Assembly: GCF_014207235.1 (NCBI RefSeq)
Contig: NZ_JACHDA010000004.1
Coordinates: forward strand, 62,001 to 126,000
DNA from: Sphingopyxis sp. JAI128
GTDB lineage: Bacteria; Pseudomonadota; Alphaproteobacteria; Sphingomonadales; Sphingomonadaceae
Reading direction: 5' to 3'
DNA length: 64,000 nucleotides
Part shown: positions 1 through 14,730 of the stretch, piece by piece
Layout: every line of letters begins with the position of its first letter
Numbering within the stretch: position 1 is the first letter of the stretch
Notes under the pieces: model-generated
Database searches by the model: none
What the model saw: only the letters and a program-made list of their open reading frames with translations
What the model was told of the DNA's origin: nothing
Made by a program: the position numbers and the translations under genes

Positions 1-267
1 CGGATCGGACAGCGCGACCTTGCCTTCTTCGACCAGCATCATGAAGGCGATGCTGGTGATCGGCTTGGTCATGCTCGCGATGCGGAAGATCGCATCGTCT
101 TTCAGCGCTTCGCCCGGCCGTCCGTCGCCGATGCACGAGCGATGCGCGATCTCGCCGCGCCGCGATACGAGCGTTGCCGCATGTGGCAGGCGGCCGGTGT
201 CGATATATTTTGCCCCGAGAAAGGCGGGGATGCGGCCCAGCCGCGTCGTGTCGAATCCGTGGGTCAT
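1..267 (-). CDS. Serine hydrolase of the class C beta-lactamase/esterase family (partial)
   Basis: N-terminal 89 codons of a penicillin-binding-protein-like serine hydrolase; the rest lies left of the window. The S-x-x-K catalytic motif is visible as SMTK at residues 65-68 (Ser65 nucleophile, Lys68 general base), preceded by FRIA and followed by [15 protein letters not shown], typical of the beta-lactamase/EstB-type family. No signal peptide is seen, so a cytoplasmic esterase is more likely than a resistance beta-lactamase. The ATG sits 13 nt after the stop of the upstream SDR gene, so it is probably the last or a late gene of the catabolic operon. An esterase or lactonase role in that pathway is inference. 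Confidence 0.8.
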
Positions 268-280
268 GCAGCGCTGCCTA

Positions 281-1087
281 TCAGTGCGAGGTCTGGCCGA
301 GCAACTGGCGCGTGACCGGGTGCGAGCTGGTGAGGCCGCCGTCGACCGCGATCGCCTGCCCGTTGACATAGCTCGCCTGGTCGCTGGCAAGGAACAGCGC
401 GACATTGGCGAGCTCCTCGGGCTGCGCGGCGCGGCGCAGCGGGTTGAGCTGGCCGAGCTTGTGCGTGACCTCCTTGGCCTTTGCATAATCGAAGGTCGGC
501 TTGGTCATCCCGGTTTCGGTCAGGCCGGGACAGACGGCATTGACGCGCACGCCGCTCGTCGACAGCTGCTGCGCCGCGACCTTGGCGAGGTTGATCACCC
601 CCGCTTTCGACGCCGAATAGGCGCCCGGGCCCGCACCCGAATTGATCCCCGCGACGCTCGCGGTCAGTACGATCGCGCCGCCGCGGCCTTGGTCGACCAT
701 CGCCTTGCCGGCGTGTTTCACCATCAGCGCGGGGCCGATCAAATTGACGCGCAGCGTCTCGGCCCACGCATCGGGATCGAAATCGAAGATGCCGCCCATG
801 TCACCGATGATCCCGGCGTTGGCGAAGGCGACGTCGAGCGCGCCATAGCTGTCCTTCGCGGCCGCGACCAACGACGCAACATCGGCTTCGACGCCCGCGT
901 CGATTTCGAGCGCGACGGCCTCGCCGCCCGCATCCTTCACCATTTGCGCGGTTTCATGTACCGCCGCGCTCTTGTCGCCGATGACGAGTTTCGCGCCCTC
1001 GGCGGCGAAGCGCAGCGCGCTCGCACGCCCGATACCCGAACCGGCACCCGTGATGATCGCAACCTTGCCGTCCAACGCGCCCATCAT
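281..1087 (-). CDS. SDR-family NAD(P)-dependent oxidoreductase
   Basis: Classical short-chain dehydrogenase of 268 residues, the usual size. The cofactor motif TGAGSGIG is at 13-20, NAG at 90-92, and the catalytic set is Ser144, Tyr157 and Lys161 (YSASK). The C-terminal IAVDGG signature is present. Asp38 after the second beta strand (VIGD) suggests NAD(H) preference. The ATG at 1087 overlaps the TGA of the upstream SDR gene (ATGA), so I chose it over a longer open frame; the two are translationally coupled. It probably oxidises a hydroxyl or hydroxyacyl group on the substrate of the surrounding acyl-CoA operon. The exact substrate is unknown. Confidence 0.9.
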
Positions 1088-1860
1088 GCGCCTCCCGAAA
1101 TCGTGGCTCCGCCATCGCACACGATGGTCTGGCCGGTGGTGAATGCCCCCGCCTTGCTGGCGAGGAAGACCGCGGCGCCCGCGATCTCGTGCGGCTCGCC
1201 GATCCGCTTCAGGGTCGAGGCGGCGGTCGATCGTTTGAGGTTTTCCGGATTTTCCCACAAGGCGCGCGCCATATCGGTGCGCACCAGCCCCGGCGCGATG
1301 CAATTGACGCGCACCCCGCGCGGCCCGAACTCGACCGAGAAATTGCGCGCGACCTGCATGTCGGCGGCTTTGGAAATGCCGTAGGCGCCGATGATCGGCG
1401 ATCCTTTCAGCCCGCCGATCGAGCTGATGATCGTGATCGACCCCTCGCCGCGTTCGAGCATTTCGGGCGCGACCATGGTGATCAGCCAGTGGTTCGACAG
1501 GATATTATTGTCCATGATCTTGCGAAACTGATCATCGGTAATGCCAAGGCCGGGGCCATAATAGGGATTCGACGCCGCGTTGCAGACGAGCGCGGTGATC
1601 TTCCCGAACGCCGCGCGCGTCGCGTTGACGAGGTTCTGGAGGTCGTCCTTCGACGAGATATTGGCGACAACCGAAATCGCGGTGCCGTCGCCAAAGCGTG
1701 CGTTGATCTCCGCCGCAGTCGCGTCGCACGCATCCTGCTTGCGGCTCGAAATCACGACTTTCGCGCCCTGCTCGGCCATCGCCTCCGCCGTCGCCTTGCC
1801 GATGCCGCGCGACGATCCGGTGATCAGCGCGACCTGCCCGGTCATGTCGAACAGGCTCAT
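1084..1860 (-). CDS. SDR-family oxidoreductase
   Basis: Classical SDR of 258 residues. TGSSRGIG is at 14-21 and the Ser147, Tyr160 and Lys164 catalytic residues are present, with a CDGG C-terminal signature. Arg40 after the second strand (ISSR) suggests NADP(H) use. Its ATG overlaps the stop of the kinase gene upstream by 4 nt (1857-1860), and its own stop overlaps the next SDR, so three consecutive genes are coupled. The human ACAD11-like kinase upstream suggests a role in hydroxyacyl-CoA metabolism. The substrate is inferred only from context. Confidence 0.9.
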   Translation of the reverse strand: MSLFDMTGQVALITGSSRGIGKATAEAMAEQGAKVVISSRKQDACDATAAEINARFGDGTAISVVANISSKDDLQNLVNATRAAFGKITALVCNAASNPYYGPGLGITDDQFRKIMDNNILSNHWLITMVAPEMLERGEGSITIISSIGGLKGSPIIGAYGISKAADMQVARNFSVEFGPRGVRVNCIAPGLVRTDMARALWENPENLKRSTAASTLKRIGEPHEIAGAAVFLASKAGAFTTGQTIVCDGGATISGGA

Positions 1861-2924
1861 GCGCCGGCCTTTCGGGCGAAGTCCCACGCCTTTTCGGCGA
1901 GCGGGCGGACGCGTTCGGACATGTCCTTCGCATGCTGCGACGAGGCGGTGCCCTCGATCACGCGCTTCTTGATGCCCTGGATGATCCCCGCGAGGCGGAA
2001 GAAGTTGTACGCGAAATACCAGTTCATGTCGGGCACGCCGTCGCGGCCGGTGGCTTGGCAATAGCGCTCGACCATCTCGCCCAGTTCGGGAATCCCCAGC
2101 GCCTTGCGATCGAGATCCTCGACCCCCGAACGCCCGCCATTTTCGGTCACCCACGCCATTGCGACATAGGTGAAATCGGCGAGCGGATCGCCCAAGGTCG
2201 ACAGTTCCCAGTCGAGTACCGCGAGCACCTCCGGCCGGTCCTTCGCAAAGATCATATTGTCGATGCGGTAATCGCCGTGGACAACGCTGGTGCGCGTCTG
2301 TTCGGGCAAGGTCGCGGGCAGCCACGCGATCAGCTGCTCCATCTCGTCCATCGTCTCGGTTTCGGACAGGCGGTACTGCTTGGTCCAGCGATCGACCTGG
2401 CGGCCGAAATAATTGCCGGGCTTGCCGAAGTCGCCGAGCCCCGCCGCCTCGATATCGACGCTGTGCAGCGCGGCGAGCGTATCGATCATCGCCTCATAGG
2501 TCGCGCGGCGGTTCTCTGGCGTCGATCCCGGCATCGCGCCGTCCCAGATCGTGTGGCCGTCGACCATCCCCATCACATAAAACCAGCTGCCGACCACCGT
2601 ATCATCGGTGCACAGCCCATATTGGCGCGCGACGGGGAAACCCATTTTATGCAAGCCCGCCTGCACCTTATATTCGCGGTCGACCGCATGCGCCGAGGGA
2701 AGCAGCGGGCCGAACGGTTTGCGGCGCAGCACATAATTGCCCGACGGCGCCGAAATCTTGTACGTCGGGTTCGACTGGCCGCCGGCGAACTTGCCTTGGG
2801 TCAGCGGCCCTTCGAAGCCCTCGACATTCGCTTCCATCCACGCGGTCAGCTTCGCCTCGTCGAGCACGTCGGCGCCTTCGGGCGCGACGGTGCCGCTAAA
2901 GGCCTTTTGCGCGTCCAGGGTCAT
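1857..2924 (-). CDS. APH-family kinase, ACAD10/ACAD11 N-terminal domain-like
   Basis: 355-residue aminoglycoside-phosphotransferase-fold kinase. Visible motifs are GGQSNPTY (48-55), VLRRKP (65-70, ATP-binding Lys), catalytic HGDYRIDN (216-223) and the metal-binding DWELSTLGDP (238-247). From memory this is closely similar along its whole length to the N-terminal domain of mammalian ACAD11, including LLPSAHA and RLSETETMDEMEQLIAWLP. In that family, and in bacterial LvaA, the kinase phosphorylates the 4-hydroxyl of 4-hydroxyacyl-CoA so that an ACAD partner can eliminate phosphate. An ACAD11-like dehydrogenase lies two genes upstream in the same operon (4175-5464). An antibiotic-resistance role is unlikely. 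Confidence 0.88.
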   Translation of the reverse strand: MTLDAQKAFSGTVAPEGADVLDEAKLTAWMEANVEGFEGPLTQGKFAGGQSNPTYKISAPSGNYVLRRKPFGPLLPSAHAVDREYKVQAGLHKMGFPVARQYGLCTDDTVVGSWFYVMGMVDGHTIWDGAMPGSTPENRRATYEAMIDTLAALHSVDIEAAGLGDFGKPGNYFGRQVDRWTKQYRLSETETMDEMEQLIAWLPATLPEQTRTSVVHGDYRIDNMIFAKDRPEVLAVLDWELSTLGDPLADFTYVAMAWVTENGGRSGVEDLDRKALGIPELGEMVERYCQATGRDGVPDMNWYFAYNFFRLAGIIQGIKKRVIEGTASSQHAKDMSERVRPLAEKAWDFARKAGA

Positions 2925-2970
2925 ATGCTCCTCCCCATCTTCGACGGGGAGGACTGGGGGACGTGCGCGC

Positions 2971-4062
2971 TCACTGGTCGAATACGATCACCGACCGTGC
3001 GGCGTCGCCTTTCCTCATCTTGTCGAACCCCTCGTTGACCTTGGCGAGCGGAATCGTCTCGGCGACGATACTGTCGAGGTCGAGCAACCCGCGCAGGTAG
3101 AAATCGACGAGCCGCGGGATATCCACCGGGAAGCGGTTGCCGCCCATGATCGCGCCCTGCAATTTCTTTCCCGAAAGCAGGTCCATCGCCGACAGGCCGA
3201 CCTTTTCGGCCAGCGGCATCATGCCGAGGATCGTCGCGGTGCCGCCGCGGCGCAGCGACGCGACCGCGAGGCTGGCCGAGGCCGGGCGCCCGACCGCTTC
3301 GATCGCATGGTCGACGCCGCCCTTGCTGATTTCGAGAATCTGTTTCGCCGCATCGTCCGACAACGCATCGACCACATCGGTCGCGCCCAGCTTCTTTGCG
3401 AGTTCGCGTTTCTCGGGAACCGGGTCGGCGGCGATGATGCGCCCCGCGCCCGCGATCTTCGCGGCGTTGATCGTCGCGAGCCCGACGCCGCCGCAGCCGA
3501 CGACCGCGACGGTCTCGCCCGGCGTCACCTTGCACGCGTTGAAGATCGTCCCCGCGCCCGTCGTCACCGCGCAGCCGATCACCGCGGCGCGGTCGAGCGG
3601 CATGTCGGGATCGATCGCGACGCACGCATGTTCGTGGACCAGCATGACTTCCGAAAAGGCCGACAGGTTGAGCATCTGGTTGACCGGCGACCCGTCGGGG
3701 CGCGTGATGCGCGGCGCCGATCCCGCCGGACGCCGTGTGTCGCCGCCCATGCACAAAGACATGCGCCCGGTGACGCAATATTCGCAGTGGCCGCAGAAGG
3801 CGCTGAGGCAGGTGACGACCGCGTCGCCGACCTTCACCGTCCGCACTTCGCTGCCGACCGCCTCGACGATCCCCGCCGCCTCATGGCCGGGGATGGCGGG
3901 GAGGGGGTGCGGATAGGCGCCGTCGATGAAATGCAGGTCCGAATGGCAGAGCCCGCACGCGGCGGTGCGGATGCGCACCTCGTGCGGGCCGCAGTCGGCA
4001 ACAACGACATCCTCGACGGACAAGGGCTTGCCCGGTTCGATCAGGATCGCGGCTTTGGTCAT
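2971..4062 (-). CDS. Zn-dependent alcohol dehydrogenase (MDR superfamily)
   Basis: 363-residue medium-chain dehydrogenase. Catalytic zinc ligands are Cys39 (GLCHSD) and His60-Glu61 (GHE), plus the Cys in VIGCAVTTG. The structural zinc set Cys90, Cys93, Cys96 and Cys104 is intact. The Rossmann motif VGCGGVG is followed by an AADP stretch, suggesting NAD+. It belongs with class III or aryl/long-chain alcohol dehydrogenases. The start is supported by GGAG seven bases upstream. It lies between the kinase and the ACAD of the operon, and probably oxidises an alcohol intermediate or a substrate hydroxyl to a carbonyl. Confidence 0.9.
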   Translation of the reverse strand: MTKAAILIEPGKPLSVEDVVVADCGPHEVRIRTAACGLCHSDLHFIDGAYPHPLPAIPGHEAAGIVEAVGSEVRTVKVGDAVVTCLSAFCGHCEYCVTGRMSLCMGGDTRRPAGSAPRITRPDGSPVNQMLNLSAFSEVMLVHEHACVAIDPDMPLDRAAVIGCAVTTGAGTIFNACKVTPGETVAVVGCGGVGLATINAAKIAGAGRIIAADPVPEKRELAKKLGATDVVDALSDDAAKQILEISKGGVDHAIEAVGRPASASLAVASLRRGGTATILGMMPLAEKVGLSAMDLLSGKKLQGAIMGGNRFPVDIPRLVDFYLRGLLDLDSIVAETIPLAKVNEGFDKMRKGDAARSVIVFDQ

Positions 4063-4079
4063 TCAAATCTCCGTTCGGT

Positions 4080-4172
4080 CCCTCTCCCGCTGACGGGAGG
4101 GGCTAGGGGAGGGCATGTCGAATATGACGCGGAACAGGCCCTCCCCCGGCCCCTCCCGCAGGCGGGAGAGGG
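4080..4172. repeat. GC-rich inverted repeat, copy 1 of the CCCCTCCCGC family
   Basis: Two 35-nt arms (4080-4114 and 4138-4172) are near-perfect reverse complements, and each arm contains a smaller hairpin of CTCCCGC/GCGGGAG type. It fills the gap between the ADH start and the ACAD stop. Related copies lie at 10374-10488 and 58479-58579. In the mRNA it would fold into a strong structure between two co-directional genes, so it could stabilise or attenuate the transcript. Confidence 0.85.
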
Positions 4173-4174
4173 GG

Positions 4175-5464
4175 CTAGCGTGATACCCCGATATCGCCCG
4201 ACGAAAAGCCGGGCTCGCTCGCTTCGCTATGCTTGGCGAATTCGATCCGCGCGATCGCGCGTTCGTGAACCTCGTCGGGACCGTCGGCCAGGCGCAAGGT
4301 GCGCTGGTGGGCATAGGCCTTGGCGAGCCCGAAATCCTCGCTGACGCCGGCGCCGCCATGCGCCTGGATCGCATCGTCGATGATCTTGAGCGCCATGTTC
4401 GGCGCTTGCACCTTGATCATCGCGATCTCGGCCGCGGCGGTCTTGTTCCCGACCTTGTCCATCATGTCGGCGGCCTTCAGGCACAGCAGCCGCGTCATCT
4501 CGATATCGATGCGCGCGCGCGCCAGCCGGTGCTCCCAGATGCTGTATTCGGCGACCTTCTTGCCGAACGCGACGCGCGACTGCAGGCGCCTCGCCATCTT
4601 GGCGATCGCTTCCTCGGCGACGCCGATCGTGCGCATGCAATGATGGATACGCCCCGGCCCGAGCCGCCCCTGCGCGATCTCGAACCCGCGCCCCTCGCCG
4701 AGCAGCATCGCCTCCTCGGCGTTGACGCGCACGTCCTTCAGCTCGATTTCCATATGGCCGTGCGGCGCATCGTCATAACCGAAGACGGGCAGGTGGCGCA
4801 GGATGTTCACGCCGGGGGCGTTCAGCGGCATCAGCACCATCGACTGCTGCGCGTGGCGCTTCGCGGCAAAGTCGGTCTTGCCCATCACGATCGCGACCTC
4901 GCAGCGCGGATCGCCCGCGCCCGACGACCACCATTTGCGGCCGTTGATGACATAGTCGTCGCCGTCGCGCTCGATCCGCGTCTCGATGTTCGTCGCGTCG
5001 GACGAGGCGACGCGCGGTTCGGTCATCAGGAAGGCCGACCGGATCTCGCCGTTCATCAGCCGGCCGAGATATTTGTCCTTCTGCGCGCGCGTGCCGTACC
5101 GGTGGAACACCTCCATATTGCCGGTGTCGGGCGCCGAACAGTTGAACACTTCGCTCGCGAAACCGACGCGGCCCATTTCCTCGGCACAGAGCGCATATTC
5201 GAGGTTGGTGAGGCCGGGACCCTCGAACTCGAACGTCTCGTCGACATGGTGGTGCGCCGCGCTGCGCGGCGGCATGAACAGGTTCCAGATGCCGGCTTCC
5301 CTGGCCTCGGCCTTCAGGTCCTCGACGATCTGGATGACCTTCCAGCGGTCGCCCGCCTTGTCCTGCTCGTTATAGGTCGGGACCGCGGGGCGCACCTTGC
5401 GCTCGATGAAGTCGCGCACCCGGTCGCGCCAATAGACCTGCCGGTCGGTGAGATCGAAATCCAT
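4175..5464 (-). CDS. Acyl-CoA dehydrogenase, ACAD10/ACAD11 C-terminal domain-like
   Basis: 429-residue FAD-dependent acyl-CoA dehydrogenase. The stretch [14 protein letters not shown], the run of [10 protein letters not shown], and [11 protein letters not shown] near the C-terminus closely resemble the ACAD domain of mammalian ACAD11. The FAD/substrate signatures FLMTEP and GGAGVSED are also visible. Together with the APH kinase in the same operon it forms a split version of ACAD11, whose job is to remove a 4-phosphoryl group from phosphorylated 4-hydroxyacyl-CoA. I chose the ATG giving MDFDLTDRQ, with AAGGA upstream, rather than a 20-residue longer frame lacking homology. A 16-bp inverted repeat lies 15 bp upstream of the start. 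Confidence 0.92.
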
Positions 5465-5479
5465 CTCCGCATCCTTCCC

Positions 5480-5495
5480 TTTACGTTCACGTAAA
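5480..5495. promoter_or_regulatory. Candidate operator, 7+2+7 inverted repeat upstream of the ACAD operon
   Basis: The sequence tttacgttcacgtaaa has 7-bp perfect arms around a 2-nt centre. It lies 15 bp before the ACAD start, in the 110-bp gap after the MFS gene. A similar site is at 7998-8013 in front of another ACAD gene. Inverted repeats of this general form are used by acyl-CoA-responsive TetR- or MerR-type regulators in proteobacteria. Which regulator binds is unknown, and no matching regulator gene lies nearby. Confidence 0.6.
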
Positions 5496-5574
5496 CCTTT
5501 GGACCGATTCGCCGGCCTTGCCAAGTCCTGCGGTCCTAAAATTACCTCATTTGGTCATCGCGCGCAGTTTTCGC

Positions 5575-7035
5575 TTATGGATGCGCGCCGGTGGCATCGG
5601 GTTCGCCGCGCGCCGCATCGTCGAGCAGCGCCAGCCGCGCCTCATGGTCGGCGCGCGAGATCGGAAATTTGCGCATCACGATCAGCCCCAGCGTGCCGAT
5701 CACCAGCACCGCGAGCGCATAGCCGAGCGCAAGGTCGCCCAGCACCGTGCCCCCGACCTCGCCCGGCTTGGCGTTCGCGGGGAAGGCGGCAAAGGACAGG
5801 ATCTGCCCCGCGAAGAAGATGCCGATCCCCGTCGCGCATTTTTGCATGAAGAAATAGCCCGCGAAGAACAGCCCTTCCGACCGCCGCCCGGTCTCGCCCT
5901 GCGACGCTTCGACGACATCGGCCATCATCGACGAGGACAGGATCATCAGGATGATCGAAAATGTGTTGGCGACAAAGACCAGCGCGAACATCGCCGTCGC
6001 GCTCGGTTTCCCCGGCAGGCCGGGAAAAACGCCCTGGATCCATGCGAAATACATGCCGCAATTGACCAGCAGCGCGATCGCACCCGCGAGGATCGCCCCG
6101 TCGCGCTTGCCGAGCCAGGCCGAGATCGGCGCGACGAGCAGGAAGGCCGCGATCATCGTCCCGAACAGCAGGAAGACATAGGCGATCATCTCGCCCTGGT
6201 TCAGCTGCCAGAAGAAACCGAGCAGATAATTGGTCATCGAGAAGGTGATGCCCTGGTTGATGAAACCGAACAGCGCGGCAAAGGTCAGCCACAGAAAGGC
6301 CCGGTTCGACAGCGTATCGCCCATGTCGCGCAGCACCTGCCGCAGCGTCGTCACCGGCTTGACGTCGGCAAGATTCGACACCGCGATCCGGCTATGCTGG
6401 CCGGCCGCCGAAATCATCACCGCGCCCGCCATCATCAACGCGCCGGCCAGCGCATAGGGGAAATAGCCGTCGGGATCGACGAGCCCCTTCGGCCCGCCGA
6501 AAAAGGCGCCATAGGCGAGCAGCAGGATGAGCAGGCCGCCGCCCCATCCGAACAGGTAGCGATAGCGCATGACGATCGTGCGCTCGTCATAATCGGCGGT
6601 GAGTTCGGGGACGATCGCGACCGAGGGCACTTCGCACATCGACACGAGCGAACGCACGATGATCGCGAAACCGATCAGCCAGGCGACGGTCATCGCGTCG
6701 CTCATCTCGGGCGGGCTCCACAGCAGCATCCACGCGATCGCGAGCGGGATCGGCGCGCCGTAAAGCCAGGGCAGGCGGCGGCCCCAGCGGCTGCGGGTGC
6801 GGTCGGTGAGTTCGCCGATCACCGGATCGACGAACGCGTCGGCGATCAGCGCGACCATGATCGCGGTCCCGACGATACCCGCGTCGAGCCCGACCACCTG
6901 GTTGTAGAAGAGCAGCAGGAAGGTCGAAAAGCCGTTATCCTTGACGCCATAGGCGATGCTGCCAAGCCCGTGGGTGACCTTCAGCCAGACCGGCAGGCGT
7001 TCGGCTTTGGGCGCCGCAACGCTCGCCGCGCTCAC
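5575..7035 (-). CDS. MFS transporter of the GPH (glycoside-pentoside-hexuronide:cation symporter) type
   Basis: 486-residue polytopic inner-membrane protein with about 12 hydrophobic segments. The early loop DRTRSRWGRRLPWLYGAP (residues about 79-96) is a good match to the GPH signature D-x-T-R-S-R-x-G-R-R-x-P. The GTG start at 7035 overlaps the stop of the upstream SDR gene (GTGA), so the pair is translationally coupled; longer frames run into the SDR and lack homology. It probably imports the substrate or an intermediate of the catabolic island by cation symport. Sugar specificity should not be assumed, because relatives near lipid catabolic genes are common in sphingomonads. Confidence 0.88.
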   Translation of the reverse strand: MSAASVAAPKAERLPVWLKVTHGLGSIAYGVKDNGFSTFLLLFYNQVVGLDAGIVGTAIMVALIADAFVDPVIGELTDRTRSRWGRRLPWLYGAPIPLAIAWMLLWSPPEMSDAMTVAWLIGFAIIVRSLVSMCEVPSVAIVPELTADYDERTIVMRYRYLFGWGGGLLILLLAYGAFFGGPKGLVDPDGYFPYALAGALMMAGAVMISAAGQHSRIAVSNLADVKPVTTLRQVLRDMGDTLSNRAFLWLTFAALFGFINQGITFSMTNYLLGFFWQLNQGEMIAYVFLLFGTMIAAFLLVAPISAWLGKRDGAILAGAIALLVNCGMYFAWIQGVFPGLPGKPSATAMFALVFVANTFSIILMILSSSMMADVVEASQGETGRRSEGLFFAGYFFMQKCATGIGIFFAGQILSFAAFPANAKPGEVGGTVLGDLALGYALAVLVIGTLGLIVMRKFPISRADHEARLALLDDAARGEPDATGAHP

Positions 7036-7889
7036 GCGGCGGCCCCGGCTTTCGCCGCTTCCTCCATTGCGAGCAGCGCGTCGAACATGCCCGGCGTTTC
7101 CTTGTCCCACGCGTGGCGCTGGCCGATCGTCAGCCCGCCGTCGACGAGCAGGTGCGTGCCCGTCATGAAGGAGCTTTCTTCGCTCGCCAGGTACGCGACC
7201 GCGTTCGCGATATCCTCGGGCTGGCCGCCGCGCGCGACGGGCTGCGCATTCGCGCTCATCTGCGCAATCACGTCATTCGCCTGCGCCTTGAGTTCGCCGG
7301 GCACCTCGAGCGAGGCGGTGAAGATATTGGTGTTGATGAAGCCGGGGCAGATCGCGTTCACGCGGATGCCATATTGCGCCAGATCGGTGGCGGCGACCTT
7401 GCTCAGGTGCAGCACGCCCGCCTTGGCGACGGCATAGGCGATCGGCGAATAGCCGGCACCGAGCGCGGCGACGCTCGCGGTGTTGACGATGCTCGCGCCT
7501 TTGCGGCCCTTCATATGCGGCGCGGCGTAGCGGATGCCCATCGCGACCGATTTGAGGACGAGGTCCATCGTGCGGTCCCAGCCTTCGGGACTGATCTCGT
7601 CGATCGGCGCGCGGTCGCCGCCCGCGGCGGCATTGTTGAACACGATGTCGATCCCGCTCGCTTTCGCCGCAGCGGCATTCATCAGCGCTTCGATATCGGC
7701 GGGCACGGTGACGTCGCAGCGCACGAAATCGATCTTGCCGTTCGATTGTTCGGCGAGCGCTTTCCCGCCCGCCTCGTCGATGTCGGCGGCAAAGACATGC
7801 GCGCCTTCGCTCGCCAGTTTCAGCACCGTGGCTTTGCCGATACCCGATGCCGCGCCGGTGACGACGGCGACCTTGCCTGCGAATCGCAT
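7032..7889 (-). CDS. SDR-family NAD(P)-dependent oxidoreductase
   Basis: 285-residue classical SDR. TGAASGIG is at 11-18, NNAAAG replaces the usual NNAG, and Ser139, Tyr152 and Lys156 are the catalytic residues. VDGG is followed by about 30 extra residues at the C-terminus. Asp36 after the second strand (AADID) indicates NAD(H). The ATG at 7889 follows GGGAG by seven bases; an upstream GTG nine codons earlier has no such site. It is coupled to the MFS gene downstream and is divergent from the ACAD pair at 8059 across a 169-bp control region. Confidence 0.9.
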   Translation of the reverse strand: MRFAGKVAVVTGAASGIGKATVLKLASEGAHVFAADIDEAGGKALAEQSNGKIDFVRCDVTVPADIEALMNAAAAKASGIDIVFNNAAAGGDRAPIDEISPEGWDRTMDLVLKSVAMGIRYAAPHMKGRKGASIVNTASVAALGAGYSPIAYAVAKAGVLHLSKVAATDLAQYGIRVNAICPGFINTNIFTASLEVPGELKAQANDVIAQMSANAQPVARGGQPEDIANAVAYLASEESSFMTGTHLLVDGGLTIGQRHAWDKETPGMFDALLAMEEAAKAGAAA

Positions 7890-7964
7890 ATCTCTGCTCC
7901 CGTTTTCTTTTGCCACTTAGCTTAGGCGCGAAGCGGCCCCCGTCAACGGCCCTCGACCTTCCGT

Positions 7965-7976
7965 TACGGCGCCGTA
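7965..7976. promoter_or_regulatory. 12-bp perfect palindrome in divergent control region
   Basis: tacggcgccgta lies between the divergent SDR (7889, minus) and ACAD (8059, plus) genes, 21 bp to the left of another inverted repeat. It could be an operator, but short GC-rich palindromes are frequent at this base composition, so the call is tentative. Confidence 0.3.
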
Positions 7977-7997
7977 GCGTCGGTCCGGCGCGCTAAG

Positions 7998-8013
7998 TTG
8001 ACGCTTGCGTAAA
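7998..8013. promoter_or_regulatory. Candidate operator resembling the site at 5480
   Basis: The 16-mer ttgacgcttgcgtaaa is a near-palindrome that shares the TT-ACG...CGTAAA frame and spacing of the repeat at 5480-5495. It lies 45 bp before the ATG of the plus-strand ACAD pair. Two sites of the same design in front of two ACAD transcription units suggest one regulator acting on both. This is inference from sequence only. Confidence 0.5.
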
Positions 8014-8058
8014 GTGGCGAAGCGGACGTAGATTCGGGCAGAGAAGAGGAGCCTGAAG

Positions 8059-9240
8059 ATGAGCGATCTGGACGCTTTCCGCACCGAGGTGCGCGAATGG
8101 CTGGAAACCAATTGTCCCCCCGAAATGCGCGAGCCCGTGCGCGACGAGGATGATGTCTGCTGGGGCGGGCGGAAATTCAAATTCAAGAATGCGGCCCAAA
8201 AGGCATGGCTCGATGCCTGTGTTGCCAAGGGCTATACCGTCCCCGACTGGCCCAGGCCTTATGGCGGCGCCGGGCTCACCCCCGAACAGACCAAGATCCT
8301 CAAGCAGGAAATGAAGCGCATCAAGGCGCGCTCGCCGCTCGACAGCTTCGGCATCTGGATGCTTGGGCCCGCGCTGCTCAAATTCGGCACCGAGGAGCAG
8401 AAGGTCCATTATCTGAACCCGATCGCGCGCGGCGAAATCCGCTGGTGCCAGGGCTATTCGGAACCCGGTTCGGGCAGCGACCTCGTCAGTCTGCAGACCT
8501 TCGGCGAGGACAAGGGCGATCATTGGGTGGTCAACGGGTCGAAGATCTGGACCAGCTACGCCGACAAGGCCGACTGGATCTTCTGCCTCGTCCGCACCGA
8601 CAAAACGAACAAATATCAGGGCATCACCTTCATGCTCTTCGACATGGAGAGCAAGGGCGTCACGACCAAGCCGATCCTGCTGATCAGCGGAAATTCGCCC
8701 TTCTGCGAAACCTTCTTCGACGATGTCGAGGTGCCGAAGTCGCAGTTCATTGGAGAAATCAACCGCGGCTGGGACGTCGCCAAATATCTTCTCGGCCACG
8801 AACGCGAGATGATCTCGGGCGGCGGCGCTGGCGGCGACATGGTCAGCATCGGCGGCGCGTTTGCCAAGGCGTTCGGCAAAAATGCCGCGGGCGAGCTCGA
8901 CGACCCGATCCTGCGCGCCGAAATGGCAGCGTTCGATACCGACGTCTTTGCCTACAGGGCTATGGGCGAACGCTTCATGGACATGTGGAAAACCGGTCGC
9001 GCCCATCCCGCGTCGTCGAACATGATGAAATATGTCGGCACCGAACTCAACAAGCGGCGGCACGAGCTCGTCATGGCAGGGGGCGGCAGCGACGCGCTCG
9101 AATGGGACAGCGAAGAAAGCAAGGGCGGCGCCCGCGCGCGCAGCTGGTTGCGCACCAAGGCCAATTCGATCGAGGGCGGGACGAGCGAAGTCATGCTCAA
9201 CGTCATCGCCAAGCGTATCCTCGACCTGCCCGGAGCCTGA
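8059..9240 (+). CDS. Acyl-CoA dehydrogenase, probable alpha subunit of a heteromeric pair
   Basis: 393-residue ACAD starting after GAGGAG. FAD- and substrate-side signatures WCQGYSEPGSGSD and NGSKIWTSYA are clear. The C-terminal IEGGTSEVMLN shows Gly where medium-chain ACADs carry their catalytic Glu (YEGT), and the R-x-x-FG FAD-contact motif of standard ACADs is missing around LGHEREMISGG. The missing motif is present in the next gene (RKQFGKLI). This complementary pattern is known for alpha2beta2 ACADs such as ChsE1-ChsE2 and FadE28-FadE29 of steroid side-chain degradation. The downstream ACAD starts 3 nt after its stop. Confidence 0.9.
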   Translation: MSDLDAFRTEVREWLETNCPPEMREPVRDEDDVCWGGRKFKFKNAAQKAWLDACVAKGYTVPDWPRPYGGAGLTPEQTKILKQEMKRIKARSPLDSFGIWMLGPALLKFGTEEQKVHYLNPIARGEIRWCQGYSEPGSGSDLVSLQTFGEDKGDHWVVNGSKIWTSYADKADWIFCLVRTDKTNKYQGITFMLFDMESKGVTTKPILLISGNSPFCETFFDDVEVPKSQFIGEINRGWDVAKYLLGHEREMISGGGAGGDMVSIGGAFAKAFGKNAAGELDDPILRAEMAAFDTDVFAYRAMGERFMDMWKTGRAHPASSNMMKYVGTELNKRRHELVMAGGGSDALEWDSEESKGGARARSWLRTKANSIEGGTSEVMLNVIAKRILDLPGA

Positions 9241-9243
9241 CCC

Positions 9244-10362
9244 ATGCCCTTGTATCACAATGACGACCAGGCGATGCTCAAGGACAGCGTCGCGCCCTTC
9301 GTCGCCGAACAGGCGCCGGTGTCGCACCTGCGCAAATTGCGCGACTCTGCCGACGCAACCGGCTTCTCGCGCGACCTGTGGGCGCAGTTCACCGAAATGG
9401 GCCTGCCCGGCATGCTCGTTCCCGAGGCGCATGGCGGGCTTGGCATGGGGCATATGGAGGCGGGCATCGTGCTCGAGGAAATCGGCCGCAACCTGACCCC
9501 GTCGCCCTTCCTCGCGACCAGCGTCGGCGCGGTCGCTGCGCTCGCCAAGGCGGGCGGCACGCAGGCGGGCCGCTGGCTCCCCGCGATCGCTTCGGGCGAG
9601 GCAATCGTCGCGCTCGCGATCGACGAGAGCGCGAAGCACCGCCCCGACCGCATCGCGACCACCGCGACGCGCGCGGGCAACGGCTTCCGTCTCGACGGCA
9701 AGAAAAGCTTCGTCCTCCACGGCCATGTCGCCGACATGAGCATCGTCGCGGCAAAGACCGACGGCGGCATCACCCTGTTCGCGGTGCCGAAGGATGCGAA
9801 AGGCGTCACCGCCGACCCGCGCCGCCTCGTCGACTCGAGCCTCGCGAGCCATGTCACGCTCGACGGCGTCGAGGTCGATGCCGACGCGGTGATCGGCGAG
9901 GTCGATGCGGGTAGCGAGATTCTCGACGCCCTGCTCGCCGCCACCCGTACCGGCGCCGCCGCCGAAATGGTCGGCGTCGGGCAGGGCGCGATGGACATGA
10001 CCGTCAATTACCTCAAGGAGCGCAAGCAGTTCGGAAAGCTGATCGGCGAGTTCCAGGGCCTCCAGCACCGTGCCGCGCATCTCTATGGCGAAATGGAAGT
10101 CGCGCGCGCAACGGTGATGAAGGCACAGCAGTTGCTCGACGAGGGCAATGAAGGCGCGAAGCTGATGGTATCGGTCGCCAAGGCCAAGGCAGGGCGCGCG
10201 GCTAACTTGGCCGTCCGCGAGGGCGTGCAGATGCACGGCGGCATCGGCATGACCGACGAATATGACATCGGCCTCTACATGAAACGCGACCGCGCGCTGG
10301 CGGAGTATATGGGCGATGTCCATTATCACATCGACCAGGTCGCGCGCATGAACGGCTATTGA
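9244..10362 (+). CDS. Acyl-CoA dehydrogenase, probable beta subunit of a heteromeric pair
   Basis: 372-residue ACAD-fold protein. The C-terminal half carries the FAD/dimer motif RKQFGKLI and the QMHGGIGMTDEYDIGLYMKR signature. The N-terminal half is divergent: the usual TEP-GSG-D substrate-side motif is replaced by LAIDES. That fits a subunit that completes the FAD site of its partner at 8059-9240, only 3 nt upstream. The homology to side-chain ACAD pairs suggests a branched or ring-bearing acyl-CoA as substrate, but this cannot be decided from sequence. Confidence 0.88.
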   Translation: MPLYHNDDQAMLKDSVAPFVAEQAPVSHLRKLRDSADATGFSRDLWAQFTEMGLPGMLVPEAHGGLGMGHMEAGIVLEEIGRNLTPSPFLATSVGAVAALAKAGGTQAGRWLPAIASGEAIVALAIDESAKHRPDRIATTATRAGNGFRLDGKKSFVLHGHVADMSIVAAKTDGGITLFAVPKDAKGVTADPRRLVDSSLASHVTLDGVEVDADAVIGEVDAGSEILDALLAATRTGAAAEMVGVGQGAMDMTVNYLKERKQFGKLIGEFQGLQHRAAHLYGEMEVARATVMKAQQLLDEGNEGAKLMVSVAKAKAGRAANLAVREGVQMHGGIGMTDEYDIGLYMKRDRALAEYMGDVHYHIDQVARMNGY

Positions 10363-10373
10363 GTCGAACCTAT

Positions 10374-10488
10374 CCCCTCCCGCTTGCGGGAGGGGCAGCG
10401 AGAGTTGCGAGCTTGCTCGCTACTCGCAGCGGGGTGGGCAACCGCACCGTCGCTGGCCCACCTTAACCCCTCCCGCAAGCGGGAGGGG
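10374..10488. repeat. GC-rich inverted repeat, copy 2 of the CCCCTCCCGC family
   Basis: Two short perfect hairpins, 10374-10395 and 10467-10488, share the same CCCCTCCCGC..GCGGGAGGGG sequence. They flank a middle part with its own ggtgggc/gcccacc inverted repeat (10433-10439, 10456-10462). The element lies between the ACAD pair and the SDR at 10506. It belongs to the same family as 4080-4172 and 58479-58579. Confidence 0.85.
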
Positions 10489-10505: not shown

Positions 10506-11309
10506 ATGAACCTCAATGACATGTTCGGCCTCGACGGCCGCATCGCGCTCGTCACCGGCGGGTCGCGCGGCATCGGCAAGATGATCGTCGAGGGCTATCT
10601 CGCCGCGGGCGCCGCGCGCGTTTATATCTCGGCGCGCAAGACCGCGCAGATCGAGGAAGCCGTCGCCGATTTCGAGACGCGCTACCCCGGCAAGGTCGTC
10701 GGGCTTCCCGTCGATCTCGCGACCGTTGAGGGCTGCCGCGCGCTCGCGAAAGAACTGGAAGCGCGCGAAGAGCGCCTCGACATCCTCGTCAACAACGCCG
10801 GCGCGGCGTGGGGCGAACCCTTCGAAGGTTTCCCCGAGGCCGGCTGGGACAAGGTGATGGACATCAACGTCAAATCGCCCTTCTTCCTGACGCAGGCGCT
10901 CCACGGACTGCTGAAAGCGGGCGGCACGCACGACCGCCCGGCGAAGGTGATCAACATCGGCTCGATCGACGGCATGCGCCTCAACCCGTGGGAAACCTAC
11001 AGCTACCACGCCTCGAAGGCGGCGATCCTCTACCTCACCAAGCGTATGGCGGCGCGGCTCGTCACCGACCACATCCTCGTCACCGCGATCGCGCCGGGCG
11101 CCTTCCAGTCGGACATGAACAAGGCCGCGCGCGACCATGGCGACGCGGTGGCGAAGAGCATCCCGGTCAAGCGGATCGGCGTGCCCGAGGATATGGCGGG
11201 TACTGCGATCTTCCTCGCGTCGAAGGCGGGCGACTATGTCGTCGGCGATACCATCACCGTCGATGGCGGCTTGGTGCATGGCGACCTGAAGACGAGCATC
11301 GACGCCTGA
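10506..11309 (+). CDS. SDR-family oxidoreductase
   Basis: 267-residue classical SDR. TGGSRGIG is at 17-24, NNAG at 96-99, and Ser153, Tyr167 and Lys171 (YHASK) form the active site; VDGG is near the C-terminus. ISARK after strand 2 suggests NADP(H). This kind of SDR is often annotated as RhlG-like or gluconate dehydrogenase-like, but the substrate is not readable. The CGGAG site eight bases upstream supports the ATG. It is the last gene of the plus-strand ACAD unit, separated from it by a repeat element. Confidence 0.88.
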   Translation: MNLNDMFGLDGRIALVTGGSRGIGKMIVEGYLAAGAARVYISARKTAQIEEAVADFETRYPGKVVGLPVDLATVEGCRALAKELEAREERLDILVNNAGAAWGEPFEGFPEAGWDKVMDINVKSPFFLTQALHGLLKAGGTHDRPAKVINIGSIDGMRLNPWETYSYHASKAAILYLTKRMAARLVTDHILVTAIAPGAFQSDMNKAARDHGDAVAKSIPVKRIGVPEDMAGTAIFLASKAGDYVVGDTITVDGGLVHGDLKTSIDA

Positions 11310-11978: not shown

Positions 11979-14657
11979 TTACCCGCTATTCCTCAGCGCC
12001 GTCGCGATCGCGTTGATCGTCAGCTGGATGCCCTCGGCGATGCGCGGATCGGTCTCGCCCGCGCGGTGGCGCTTCATCAGTTCGATCTGCAGCAGGTTGA
12101 GCGGCTCGATATAGGGCAGTCGTAGCCGGATCGACGCCTCGAGCGCCGGATTCTTCTCGAGTAATCGCGTCTGCCCGGTGATTTCGAGCAGCCCGTCGTG
12201 TGCGCGGTGCCAGCCGTCGCGGATGCGCGCGAAGATCGCGTCGTGCCCGTCGACATCGCTCGCGAGCGCGGCATAGCGCGCCGCAATCCCCATGTCGGAC
12301 TTGGCGAGCACCATTTCCATATTGCCGAGCAGCGCGGCAAAAAAGGGCGAGCTTTGCGCCATGTCGGCAAGCAGCGCCTTGTCGCTGAAGCCCGCGAAAG
12401 CCTCGCCCGTCCCGTACCAGCCGGGCAGCATCGTGCGCGCCTGCGCCCAGCTGAACACCCAGGGGATCGCGCGCAGATGCTCGATCGCGGTGCTCTTTTT
12501 GCGGCTCGACGGGCGCGATCCGATCTTGAGCGTCGCAATCTCGGCGATCGGCGTCATCGCGCGGAAGAAATCCTTGAACGCCGGCGTGCCGTATACAAGG
12601 TCGCGATAGGCGGCAAAGGCGGTGTCCGACAAAGCGTCCATCGCGGCCGTGAAGCGCTCGCTCGCATCGCCGCCAAGGCTCTCGGGCTCGAGGCTCGCGA
12701 GCAGGCTCGCCGACACCATCGCTTCCAGATTGGTCGCCGCGCTGTCGATCGTGCCATATTTGGCGGCGATCACCTCGCCCTGTTCGGTGATGCGGATGCG
12801 GCCCTGCACCGTGCCCGCGGGCTGCGCGCGGATCGCGGCAAAGGCGCTGCCGCCGCCGCGCCCGACCGCGCCGCCGCGACCGTGGAACAATTGCATCGCG
12901 GTGTCGGCTTCGTCGAACACGGGGGTCAGCGCCTGCGACGCCTGATGCAGCCCCCAGGTCGAGGTGAAATAGCCGCCGTCCTTGTTCGAATCGGAATAGC
13001 CGATCATCACTTCCTGATGCCCACGCACGCCGACCTGCGGGCCGATTTCGGGCATCGCGAAATAGCGTCGCATGATATCGGGCGCGCGGCTCAAATCGTC
13101 GATTGTCTCGAACAAGGGCACGACCATCAGATTGCTGGCGCCCGCGTGGGTGCCGCTGCGCCACAGCCCGCCTTCGCGCGCGAGCACATGCACTTCGAGC
13201 AGGTCGGACAGGTCCTGCGCCATGCTGATGATCCACTGGCAGATCGCATCCTTGCCGAGCCGCGCGCGCACGTCGGCTGCGGCATGGACGATGGCAAGCT
13301 CGCCCGCGGTTTCTTCGCTCCATTCGTGCCATGGTGCGGCGAGCGGCCGGTCGCTCGCGAGTTCGTCGGTGAGCAGCGCGACGCGCGCCGCTTCGTCGAG
13401 CGCCAGATAATCGTCGCACACGCCCGCGACCTTGAGCAGTTCGGCGAGCACGCGTTCGTGCACCGCGCTGTTCTGCCGCATGTCGAGCGTCGCGAGATGG
13501 AACCCGAACACCTCGACCGCGCGGATCAGCCGTCCGAGCGCGCCGATGCCTGCGAGCTGCCCTTTGCCGCTCGCCGACAGGCCGTTCGCGATGGTGACGA
13601 GGTCGCGGCGGAAATCGGCGGGGGTGGCATAGGCCTCACCTTTCAGCGCGGCAGGGCGCGGCGGCGCCTTGCCGGTGATCGCCAGATAAGTGGCCGACAG
13701 CCGCGCATAGATGCCCGACAGCGCACGGCGATAGGGTTCGTCGCTGCGGCTCGGCGCCCCGTCGCCGCTCGCTTCGGCCAGCGCTTTGACCGCCTCGGTC
13801 ACCGGCGCGAGCGCCGACGACACCGACAGTTCGGCGCCGAGCGCGTGGACCTGATCGATATAATGGCCAATCACCGCGGCGGCGTTGCGGCTTGTCGCCA
13901 TGCGCAGCGTCTCGGCGGTGACGAAGGGGTTTCCGTCGCGGTCGCCGCCGATCCAGCTGCCCACGCGCAGGAAGGACGCGGGGCGCGTTCCCAGCTCCTT
14001 TTCCCAGCGCGCATAGAGCTTGGGGACCACGGGCAGAAAGACGTCGCGCAAATAGGTGAGCGCATTGTCGATCTCGTCGGCGACGAACAGTTTTTGCGTG
14101 CGCAGCGGGCGCGTCTGCCACAGGAGAACGACCTGCCGCCGGATCGCTTCTTCGATCACGTCGCCCTCGGGCGTCTCGTCGAGCCCGGCATCGCGCATCC
14201 GCATCAGCTCGGCGACGCGGTTCTTGTGGTCGAGCACCGACTTGCGGCGCACTTCGGTCGGATGCGCGGTCAGCACGGGGGCAACAAGCGATGCGTCCAG
14301 CAGCGCCGCGACCGCGTCGTCGTCGATCCCGTCGGCCTTCAGCTTTTCGAGCGCCGCCGCGACCGTCGCTTCGGGTTCGGCCGCGACGCCCTGCCGATCC
14401 TCGGCAAGGTTGGCAAGCATCGAGAAGAGCATGAAGCCGCGCACGAAGGAAATCGTGTCGTCGAGGCTCAGCGCATCGAGCCCCGGGTCGATCGCTTCGG
14501 CCCCCGCGATGCCGCGGTGCCGATCGACGCTCGACGAGCGGATATATTCGGTCTGGCGGAACAATTTGTCGCCGCCATAAGCGCGGATGACGTCGCCGAG
14601 GATCCGCCCCAAATAGCGGATGTCGGGATTTTGCGAGATCTGGATAGGCGGGCCCAT
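11979..14657 (-). CDS. ppc: Phosphoenolpyruvate carboxylase
   Basis: 892-residue PEP carboxylase, which converts PEP and bicarbonate to oxaloacetate to refill the TCA cycle. Catalytic His132 is in LTAHPTEVRRKS, and the signatures GYSDSNKDGG and FHGRGGAVGRGGG are intact. The C-terminus ends ALRNSG, close to the conserved RNTG. The start is uncertain: ATG at 14657 gives MGPPIQISQNPDIRYLG, and an in-frame ATG at 14702 would add 15 basic residues. Neither has a good ribosome-binding site, and both lie in the arms of one long hairpin (14656-14702), which may control translation. Confidence 0.95.
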   Translation of the reverse strand: MGPPIQISQNPDIRYLGRILGDVIRAYGGDKLFRQTEYIRSSSVDRHRGIAGAEAIDPGLDALSLDDTISFVRGFMLFSMLANLAEDRQGVAAEPEATVAAALEKLKADGIDDDAVAALLDASLVAPVLTAHPTEVRRKSVLDHKNRVAELMRMRDAGLDETPEGDVIEEAIRRQVVLLWQTRPLRTQKLFVADEIDNALTYLRDVFLPVVPKLYARWEKELGTRPASFLRVGSWIGGDRDGNPFVTAETLRMATSRNAAAVIGHYIDQVHALGAELSVSSALAPVTEAVKALAEASGDGAPSRSDEPYRRALSGIYARLSATYLAITGKAPPRPAALKGEAYATPADFRRDLVTIANGLSASGKGQLAGIGALGRLIRAVEVFGFHLATLDMRQNSAVHERVLAELLKVAGVCDDYLALDEAARVALLTDELASDRPLAAPWHEWSEETAGELAIVHAAADVRARLGKDAICQWIISMAQDLSDLLEVHVLAREGGLWRSGTHAGASNLMVVPLFETIDDLSRAPDIMRRYFAMPEIGPQVGVRGHQEVMIGYSDSNKDGGYFTSTWGLHQASQALTPVFDEADTAMQLFHGRGGAVGRGGGSAFAAIRAQPAGTVQGRIRITEQGEVIAAKYGTIDSAATNLEAMVSASLLASLEPESLGGDASERFTAAMDALSDTAFAAYRDLVYGTPAFKDFFRAMTPIAEIATLKIGSRPSSRKKSTAIEHLRAIPWVFSWAQARTMLPGWYGTGEAFAGFSDKALLADMAQSSPFFAALLGNMEMVLAKSDMGIAARYAALASDVDGHDAIFARIRDGWHRAHDGLLEITGQTRLLEKNPALEASIRLRLPYIEPLNLLQIELMKRHRAGETDPRIAEGIQLTINAIATALRNSG

Positions 14658-14713
14658 GCGCCGCTTGCTGCACCTGCGAAGGTGCAGGGTCAAGCGGCGC
14701 ATAGCTATGCGCC
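14656..14713 (-). promoter_or_regulatory. Nested hairpin and 18-bp palindrome covering the ppc start
   Basis: Outer arms 14656-14667 and 14691-14702 are a perfect 12-bp inverted repeat. Inner arms 14668-14675 and 14680-14687 are a perfect 8-bp repeat with a 4-nt loop and a 3-nt bulge. Overlapping this, 14696-14713 is a perfect 18-bp palindrome. The hairpin spans both candidate ppc start codons, so in mRNA it would hide the start. It may alternatively terminate the upstream lipoprotein transcript, though no U-tract follows. Confidence 0.65.
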
Positions 14714-14730
14714 AAACCAGCAGCGTTATA

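Follow-up and report, generated by a model that had tools for sequence, protein, structure and literature searches.

The 64,000-nucleotide stretch of Sphingopyxis sp. JAI128 analysed here, referred to as the window, carries two minus-strand genes encoding an APH-fold kinase and an acyl-CoA dehydrogenase (ACAD), with a gene for a zinc-dependent alcohol dehydrogenase (Zn-ADH) lying between them (Table 1). The coordinates and strand assigned to the kinase and ACAD genes in the initial annotation are correct, and the motifs quoted there are present in both sequences. The transporter and ACAD genes are separated by 110 bp, the ACAD and Zn-ADH genes by 112 bp and the Zn-ADH and kinase genes by 46 bp; the 112 bp gap contains two palindromes. 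Gene order, strand and conservation suggest that the operon is read as a single transcript. A sigma-70-type scan of positions 1-8200, which is blind to other types of promoter, returned no promoter.

Table 1. Genes and sequence features of the locus, in window coordinates.
Feature	Position	Strand	Remarks
ACAD10/11-type acyl-CoA dehydrogenase (predicted phosphate-eliminating type)	4175..5464	-	429 aa
APH-fold kinase, ACAD10/11 type	1857..2924	-	355 aa
Zn-dependent medium-chain alcohol dehydrogenase	2971..4062	-	363 aa; Pfam PF00107/PF08240
SDR1	1084..1860	-	end overlaps kinase gene
SDR2	281..1087	-	overlaps SDR1
Beta-lactamase-family serine hydrolase	1..267	-	N-terminal 89 aa inside window; SMTK motif
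MFS_2 type transporter	5575..7035	-	Pfam PF13347, E 4.2e-104
SDR3	7032..7889	-	overlaps transporter gene
Divergent PimC-like ACAD, large subunit	8059..9240	+	TIGR03204, 275 bits, below cut-off of 623.85; conserved neighbour
Divergent PimD-like ACAD, small subunit	9244..10362	+	TIGR03203, 227.6 bits, below cut-off of 652.7; conserved neighbour
SDR4	10506..11309	+	conserved neighbour
Kinase catalytic loop VHGDYRIDN	2256..2282	-	D218 (= mouse D220), N223 (= N225)
ACAD residues 267-278, codons	4631..4666	-	equivalents of mouse R626, R631, H634, C, M, R637 (alignment to mouse ACAD11)
ACAD D394, codon	4283..4285	-	equivalent of catalytic D753 (alignment to mouse ACAD11)
ACAD insertion, about 12-15 residues (about 69-83)	5216..5260	-	directly after WNLFMP; specific to window-like clade

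The best PDB sequence matches of the ACAD are human ACAD11 (2wbi, E 2.8e-126) and 8v3u (E 7.9e-126). Scores of 425 bits for 2wbi, 424 for 8v3u, 421 for 8v3v and 400 for 4hr3 are followed by only 134 for the next structure, 4iv6, and the protein is 55-56% identical to mouse and human ACAD11. In a tree built from 34 of the 80 named loci, hand-picked for spread, it falls inside the set containing human and mouse ACAD11 (49 rows, 91/89), while PimC, PimD and an isobutyryl-CoA-dehydrogenase-like ACAD fall apart from that set. The deep nodes of this tree, as of the kinase tree, are unsure because of long outgroup branches. The predicted fold gives the same picture: the four best PDB chains are ACAD11 chains and 4hr3 (E <= 7.1e-37, with 2.2e-38 for 2wbi), followed by the ACAD11 structure 8v3v (4.0e-24) and then by other ACADs from 2.2e-23. 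Twenty NCBIfam families match the ACAD, each below its cut-off, the best being acryloyl-CoA reductase at 153 bits against 640.

The roles of R626, R631, H634, the adjoining Cys and Met, R637 and the catalytic D753 in ACAD11 are described in the available text of PMC12440821. Equivalents of R626 (residue 267), of the HCMR motif formed by H634 to R637 (residues 275-278) and of D753 (residue 394) are kept in the window ACAD and absent from PimC, PimD and the isobutyryl-CoA-dehydrogenase-like ACAD, the outgroup from the same genome. The presence of HCMR in 80 of 80 loci is a biased count and was set aside, the scan pattern GPGRIHHC including part of the motif. The alignment also shows conservation of the proline in WNLF-P; in human ACAD11, Pro463 is the cavity-forming proline. 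The clade-specific insertion, modelled with a confidence of about 53-83 per ten-residue block, may change the specificity of the enzyme.

For the kinase, the first sequence match is 3dxp (E 5.5e-117) and the second the mouse ACAD11 kinase domain (8v3v, E 2.2e-70), to which it is 39% identical. For both proteins the nearest sequences are thus ACAD11 or bacterial counterparts of its halves, and with E-values of this order the kinship is far above chance. The equivalent of the CoA-contacting R176 is R175, a position occupied by Gln in two unrelated APH proteins of the genome; the equivalents of D220 and N225 are common to the kinase and to both of these. No Arg is found at the number of the published CoA contact R86 in the chain numbering used, and the Arg preceding the alphaC Glu is conserved. 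In a tree of 28 of the 60 extracted kinases, hand-picked for spread, the node uniting the window and mouse kinases (84/75) also draws in OWN_L008, a very long-branched row that represents an unrelated APH of the same genome. The fold search again places 3dxp first (E 2.1e-32); the ACAD11 kinase domain 8v3v ranks sixth (E 1.5e-9), below Rv3168 and a 25-hydroxysteroid kinase (9fsg, 19% identity).

A Pfam APH domain and a weak NCBIfam match to APH(3') might suggest an aminoglycoside resistance enzyme sitting by chance in a catabolic operon. This role was rejected as extremely improbable, as the APH(3') score of 32.6 bits is far under the cut-off of 205, the strongest kinship is with 3dxp and the ACAD11 kinase, and the position of the gene is fixed in the genus. 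In public annotation the protein is simply a 'phosphotransferase family protein' or an 'aminoglycoside phosphotransferase', and the pathway is therefore easily overlooked.

The best reading of the pair, and the one proposed in the initial annotation, is a split ACAD10/11 performing 4-hydroxyacyl-CoA phospho-dehydration. We put its probability at about 0.82, a figure which covers the kinase-ACAD chemistry only. The assignment as a split ACAD10/11 is supported by sequence and residues and, for the ACAD, also by tree and fold; the reading as a whole draws on the protein families and their active-site residues, the fold of the ACAD, linkage throughout the genus and co-occurrence across the class. 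The function of the family, kinase-ACAD dehydration of 4-hydroxyacyl-CoA, is described in the available parts of PMC12440821 and PMC11342911. By extension, we infer both the reaction itself and its 4-position in Sphingopyxis. The kinase would use ATP to phosphorylate the 4-hydroxyl, converting 4-hydroxyacyl-CoA to 4-phosphoacyl-CoA, and the ACAD would then expel the phosphate to give 2-enoyl-CoA by means of FAD, an aspartate serving as base and a phosphate pocket lined by Arg, His and Arg, with zero net oxidation. The 2-enoyl-CoA would enter beta-oxidation, probably through a FadB-like hydratase/3-hydroxyacyl-CoA dehydrogenase encoded just past the window. Only tentatively can an actual substrate of the pair be suggested.

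Whether the two genes are always together, a question raised in the initial annotation, has different answers for the genus and for the class. In a sample of 36 Sphingopyxis genomes, 16 of which were read as regions, the pair is linked in 35 with a gap of 1106-1401 bp; in the remaining genome the genes lie on two contigs. In contrast, the genes are within 10 kb of one another in just 20 of the 39 alphaproteobacterial genomes possessing both, the 19 others including cases of contig breaks. Among the 95 genomes surveyed in this class, with at most 18 candidates scored per genome, both genes are found in 39, neither in 53, the kinase only in three and the ACAD only in none at the thresholds used (Fisher p 1.6e-23). 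For the 48 genomes in which the first look gave 15 or more ACAD candidates the corresponding numbers are 34, 11, three and none (p 1.6e-8). The ACAD therefore goes with the kinase even where the genes are far apart. As against no ACAD-only genome in the class at these thresholds, two of the 20 ACAD-positive genomes of the order have no kinase match at E 1e-30.

These two genomes, and the existence of ACAD11-like genes with no kinase nearby, would fit an ACAD which has gone back to being a conventional FAD/ETF-linked acyl-CoA dehydrogenase, the target of the kinase being unrelated and the neighbourhood historical. The retention of the phosphate-pocket residues, the count of 0 of 95 ACAD-only genomes (thresholds used) and the genus-wide linkage argue against such a reversion, which is very improbable.

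Some observations count against the phospho-dehydration reading. Many ACAD11-like genes have no nearby kinase: beside the 19 of 39 in the class, this applies to 19 of 80 loci over the available flank, some contigs being short, and to four of ten annotated plasmid regions (L181, L183, L184 and L221). There were 12 plasmid regions, of which nine were compared, L184 being left out and L219 and L220 unannotated. The sixth place of ACAD11 in the kinase fold search, the limited support at the kinase-tree node and the unrelated APH under it, the ACAD insertion and the failure to recognise a ligase or thiolase (see below) also tell against it.

Comparison with known systems reveals both parallels and differences. 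Mammalian ACAD11 and ACAD10 have homologous kinase and ACAD halves, and the catalytic Asp of both, together with equivalents of R176, N225, R626, HCMR and D753, are kept in Sphingopyxis. Here, however, the halves are two separate proteins in the order ACAD-ADH-kinase and the fusion in one polypeptide is absent; relative to ACAD11, the ACAD has its extra insertion after WNLFMP and the kinase lacks a HAD domain in a Pfam search. Kinase and ACAD are likewise separate in Burkholderia, whose split orthologues substitute for the ACAD10 domains in vitro according to the accessible text of PMC11342911. A Burkholderia guangdongensis pair (L174), used as a stand-in for the tested sequences, is 52% (kinase) and 63% (ACAD) identical to the window proteins. 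Its kinase gene is immediately upstream of the ACAD gene (69 bp), whereas in Sphingopyxis the ACAD gene comes first and the Zn-ADH gene intervenes. The plasmid clusters of Novosphingobium capsulatum (L182) and Sphingobium TomMM15 (L216) are each a one-strand run of ACAD-APH-SDR1-SDR2-FadB-CoA ligase-other ACAD(s)-thiolase. The order of the first five genes is as here, with products 53-70% identical. Homologues of the Zn-ADH and hydrolase were not found in either stretch, and both include a CoA ligase and a thiolase, unlike Sphingopyxis, beside whose operon neither was recognised in gene lists read by eye.

The lva operon of Pseudomonas putida (LvaABCDE) shares with the locus a logic of kinase, ACAD and SDR, as far as can be judged from the available part of PMC6692424, where LvaD is the SDR which reduces levulinyl-CoA. 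The likeness is one of gene content. The accessory genes differ, no ligase is recognised, and there is no room for a gene of the size of lvaB next to either partner because the spaces around the ACAD and kinase genes amount to 110, 112 and 46 bp and an overlap. No lva operon was recognised in the plasmid kinase search among the best 60 of 247 records. A levulinate-type pathway, in which SDR1 or SDR2 would act like LvaD and convert a 4-ketoacyl-CoA to the 4-hydroxyacyl-CoA used by the kinase and ACAD, gains some credence from the company kept by SDR1: a homologue of at least 50% is found close to 15 of the 29 ACADs of the window-like group and to two of 51 others (five of 51 with a looser length cut). 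The short gaps and the ligase unrecognised beside the pair make it unlikely, as does the reported identity of just 29% between LvaA and the ACAD10/11 kinases (PMC11342911, in part), compared with the 39% between the window and mouse kinases.

Somewhat better placed, though still a minority possibility, is another class of substrate handled by the same chemistry, such as an acyl-CoA that bears a hydroxyl and is cyclic, branched or derived from a terpenoid or a steroid side chain, in place of a straight 4-hydroxy fatty acid, with the PimC/PimD-like ACADs carrying out other rounds of the breakdown. The recurrence of these ACADs and FadB near the pair, the TonB receptors in some annotated regions and the place of the 25-hydroxysteroid kinase among the next fold matches of the kinase are in keeping with it. 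Conversely, the mapped pocket residues are kept, the nearest relatives of known activity use linear 4-hydroxyacyl-CoAs, and 5- or 6-hydroxyhexanoate yielded no phosphoacyl product in cells with ACAD10 (PMC11342911). This possibility and the levulinate-type pathway concern the substrate; each is compatible with the kinase-ACAD chemistry, and both can be true together with it.

Around the pair, a conserved set of genes encodes the Zn-ADH, the SDRs, the serine hydrolase, the PimC/PimD-like ACADs and the FadB-like enzyme. The FadB-like gene comes next after the hydrolase gene in all 16 genus loci read, and here lies just outside the window. The best NCBIfam family for the Zn-ADH is NDMA-dependent ADH (317.9 bits, below the cut-off of 440). 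Going by gene order, this enzyme, the SDRs and the hydrolase may serve the pathway of the pair, as initially proposed; by analogy with LvaD and levulinyl-CoA, SDR1, SDR2 and the Zn-ADH might perhaps interconvert a 4-keto form or some other oxidised species. The hydrolase, 400 aa long in the genome, is of the Pfam Beta-lactamase family (E 8.7e-62). Its best NCBIfam match, methyl acetate hydrolase, stays below the cut-off (152.5 against 550), and the lactone opening initially suggested for it is no more than conceivable, as is the release of the acid from an ester. Oleate hydratase was discarded as a widespread supplier of 4-hydroxy acids in the genus: the Pfam cut-off was reached in 0 of 60 genomes.

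Both 4-hydroxyacyl-CoA phospho-dehydration and split bacterial pairs performing such chemistry are already published. The novelty is thus less than first suggested, since split Burkholderia orthologues replaced the ACAD10 domains in vitro (PMC11342911, available text). For the surrounding gene set no paper appeared among the titles listed in the literature searches, a weak absence given that subscription papers were mostly outside coverage; the S. granuli TFA genome paper mentions none of acyl-CoA dehydrogenase, steroid, pimel and phosphotransferase. The interest lies in this conserved gene set rather than in the already known dehydration chemistry.

On its contig 6 the same genome holds a much diverged ACAD, termed the C6 type (row OWN_C1_generic in the ACAD tree), which is 32% identical, keeps the mapped phosphate-site residues and is encoded by a gene overlapping that of a kinase. 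It is tempting to speculate, albeit with more doubt than confidence, that bacteria make general use of kinase-driven dehydration through several ACAD subfamilies rather than a single enzyme for 4-hydroxy acids, and that among these the window operon and the C6-type pair would be substrate-specialised branches, the substrate of the latter not being a linear 4-hydroxyacyl-CoA. The specialisation of the window operon would reside in an insertion peculiar to it, close to the substrate cavity, and in its set of Zn-ADH, SDRs and hydrolase.

The analysis links ACAD11, a lipid enzyme of animals, with an operon present in all sampled Sphingopyxis genomes. Judged from sequence, the pair very probably strips the hydroxyl from 4-hydroxy fatty acids and so renders them degradable. 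Should the accessory genes prove to work together with the pair, the genus would provide a handy genetic system in which to discover natural 4-hydroxy acids or lactones, and enzymes of lactone chemistry.

The kinase and acyl-CoA dehydrogenase (ACAD) of the window represent a real and well-conserved split form of ACAD10/11, residing in a lineage-specific operon (Table). The initial annotation held that the two proteins resemble the two domains of ACAD11, and this is borne out by matches to solved structures and by mapped residues. By sequence, the four closest solved relatives of the ACAD are the ACAD11 structures 2wbi, 8v3u and 8v3v together with M. abscessus 4hr3 (400–425 bits), the fifth scoring only 134 bits. 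For the APH-fold kinase the best solved matches are 3dxp at 394 bits, the kinase domain of mouse ACAD11 at 241 bits and 9o56 at 201 bits. Key residues of mouse ACAD11 were taken from PMC12440821. In the alignments, R267, R272, H275, C276, M277, R278 and D394 of the window ACAD correspond to R626, R631, H634, C, M, R637 and D753, and R175, D218 and N223 of the kinase to R176, D220 and N225, the published R86 lying outside the mapped set. The PimC-, PimD- and isobutyryl-CoA-dehydrogenase-like ACADs of the genome have R631 and lack the remaining mapped ACAD residues, while two unrelated APHs share the catalytic Asp and Asn of the window kinase and carry Gln at R176. A clade-specific ACAD insertion of some 12–15 residues directly after WNLFMP is found in 16/16 genus loci read, and many relatives from Sphingomonas, Erythrobacter and Caulobacter share it in the alignment. 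AlphaFold confidence is lower at this insertion, which may influence substrate choice.

Phylogenetic and structural comparisons place the ACAD more sharply than the kinase. In a tree of 59 rows, the window ACAD falls within an alphaproteobacterial group of 20 rows with strong support (100/99), which nests in a 49-row set with human and mouse ACAD11 (91/89); the PimC-, PimD- and isobutyryl-CoA-dehydrogenase-like ACADs fall outside this set. Among 80 named loci, the nearest ACAD orthologue is that of S. granuli (L132, 88%). In the kinase tree (50 rows), the mouse kinase domain is placed among bacterial kinases, and the node uniting it with the window kinase (84/75) also includes an unrelated APH whose branch is very long, so that a common clade for the two kinases is tentative. 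The AlphaFold models have mean pLDDT values of 84.5 (ACAD) and 86.3 (kinase). Structure prediction supports the proposed kinship with ACAD10/11 for the ACAD, with 2wbi as best fold match (E 2.2e-38) and a clear drop after the top four chains. For the kinase, ACAD11 ranked sixth (E 1.5e-9), the list being headed by 3dxp (2.1e-32), then Rv3168 (2.1e-13) and a 25-hydroxysteroid kinase.

The mammalian kinase places a phosphate on the 4-hydroxyl of 4-hydroxyacyl-CoA, and this phosphate is then removed by the ACAD half, giving 2-enoyl-CoA with no outside electron acceptor (PMC11342911 and PMC12440821). PMC11342911 also reports that 5- or 6-hydroxyhexanoate gave no product in the cells tested, and that either half can be replaced by Burkholderia proteins. 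Split kinase/ACAD pairs of this kind are already known, and the window adds one more. Homology and the mapped residues argue strongly that this pair performs kinase–ACAD phospho-dehydration: the kinase would phosphorylate the 4-hydroxyl of 4-hydroxyacyl-CoA, and the ACAD would then expel the phosphate to yield 2-enoyl-CoA without an external electron acceptor. Among the accessory genes, SDR1 or SDR2 might play the part of LvaD, and the hydrolase might open lactones.

Features of the window and of related loci (L013, L014 and L015 belong to the same genome)
Feature	Region	Coordinates	Strand	Remarks
SDR3	window	7032-7889	-	
MFS_2 transporter	window	5575-7035	-	
ACAD	window	4175-5464	-	
ACAD insertion	window	5216-5260		after WNLFMP
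Zn-ADH	window	2971-4062	-	
Kinase (APH)	window	1857-2924	-	
SDR1	window	1084-1860	-	
SDR2	window	281-1087	-	
Beta-lactamase-family hydrolase	window	1-267	-	
FadB-like hydratase/3-hydroxyacyl-CoA dehydrogenase	outside window edge			next after hydrolase
PimC-like ACAD, PimD-like ACAD, SDR4	window	from 8059	+	opposite direction
Palindrome pair	window	4084-4168		ACAD-ADH gap
Palindrome pair	window	10377-10485		PimD-SDR4 gap
Palindrome pair	window	58482-58575		58.5 kb
Second kinase-ACAD pair	L014 (contig 6)	3577-4749; 4739-5803	+; +	genes overlap
Orphan HCMR ACAD	L013 (contig 5)	9391-10959		~50%
HAMR ACAD	L015 (contig 2)	9111-10436		~34%
ACAD11-like gene	L181 (pMI2)	14001-15239		near linX and linA

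Both orthologues (at least 82% identity) occur in 36/36 sampled Sphingopyxis genomes, with partial matches in G009 (ACAD) and G030 (kinase), and the pair lies on one contig in 35 of them with a gap of 1106–1401 bp, G026 having it on two contigs. Neighbourhoods were read as regions in 16 of the 36 genomes, L060 being cut by a contig end. ACAD-ADH-APH, SDR2, hydrolase and FadB are retained in all 16, the transporter and the divergent PimC/PimD/SDR4 genes in 15, and SDR1 and SDR3 each in 14. SDR1 and the transporter may have been exchanged, since identity is just 61–62% for SDR1 in three loci and 44–50% for the transporter in five. The 4.10 Mb, 15-contig Sphingopyxis source genome, of which the window spans 62001-126000 on contig 4, also has paired CTCCCGC-NN-GCGGGAG palindromes, 69–93 bp between partners, at three places in the window, one of the six palindromes carrying a mismatch. 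The genome holds 27 exact sites, several of them paired, and none of a reversed control; the pairs look like a REP/BIME-type element.

Beyond the genus, kinase and ACAD occur together in counts valid at the thresholds stated and with Fisher p-values that ignore shared descent: of 24 further genomes from the order (ACAD E 1e-90, kinase E 1e-30), 18 have both, two the ACAD only and four neither (p 0.0014); among 95 of the class, one per genus with the window's included (1e-100 and 1e-45), 39 have both, none the ACAD only, three the kinase only and 53 neither (p 1.6e-23); and in a lifestyle control of 48 class genomes in which first-look ACAD candidates numbered 15 or more, the corresponding figures are 34, 0, 3 and 11 (p 1.6e-8). 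The two genes lie within 10 kb in just 20 of the 39 class genomes having both, and the association therefore goes beyond mere position. Synteny, which the initial annotation had proposed as a check, holds in the genus and only in part more widely. Two kinases of this type lie no more than 3 kb apart in 5/42 kinase-bearing class genomes (G066, G088, G108, G127 and G150), where one could be a partner subunit.

A kinase match was found in the flank examined at 61 of the 80 named ACAD loci, and at 57 with a stricter cut (20/29 window-like loci and 37/51 others). Accessory genes of at least 50% identity are mostly limited to window-like loci (SDR1 15, SDR2 15 and Zn-ADH 13 of 29, the counts at the other 51 loci being 2, 0 and 0, with SDR1 rising to 5/51 under a looser length cut). 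The wide core is therefore kinase plus ACAD, and the accessory genes are a lineage-specific set. In another family of the order (L076, L078, L079, L082), a kinase of ~32–35% identity shares a region with PimC, PimD and an ACAD11-like ACAD. A role in beta-oxidation is very likely, because the ACAD-APH-SDR1-SDR2-FadB clusters on N. capsulatum and Sphingobium TomMM15 plasmids continue into CoA ligase, more ACADs and thiolase. Counting against a beta-oxidation pair, however, the kinase is absent near the ACAD in 4 of 10 annotated plasmid regions read, namely the lin plasmid pMI2, Novosphingobium EMRT-2, Cupriavidus pHG1 and Comamonas; two further regions were without annotation. On pMI2, a conjugative plasmid of Sphingobium sp. 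MI1205, no kinase lies in the 14 kb either side of the ACAD11-like gene.

The phosphate-site residues recur elsewhere in the window's genome. They are present in the L013 and L015 ACADs, near which no APH-family gene was found. In the second kinase–ACAD pair, whose neighbours appear CaiB- and SDR-like by eye, the diverged contig 6 ACAD is 32% identical to that of the window and retains equivalents of R626, R631, H634, C, M, R637 and D753. Near relatives of this ACAD occupy 38 places in 60 genomes, with a kinase within 2 kb at eight; the other 30, some near contig ends, show none within 2 kb at E 1e-30. This diverged ACAD with the same phosphate-site residues is a more surprising lead than the window pair itself.
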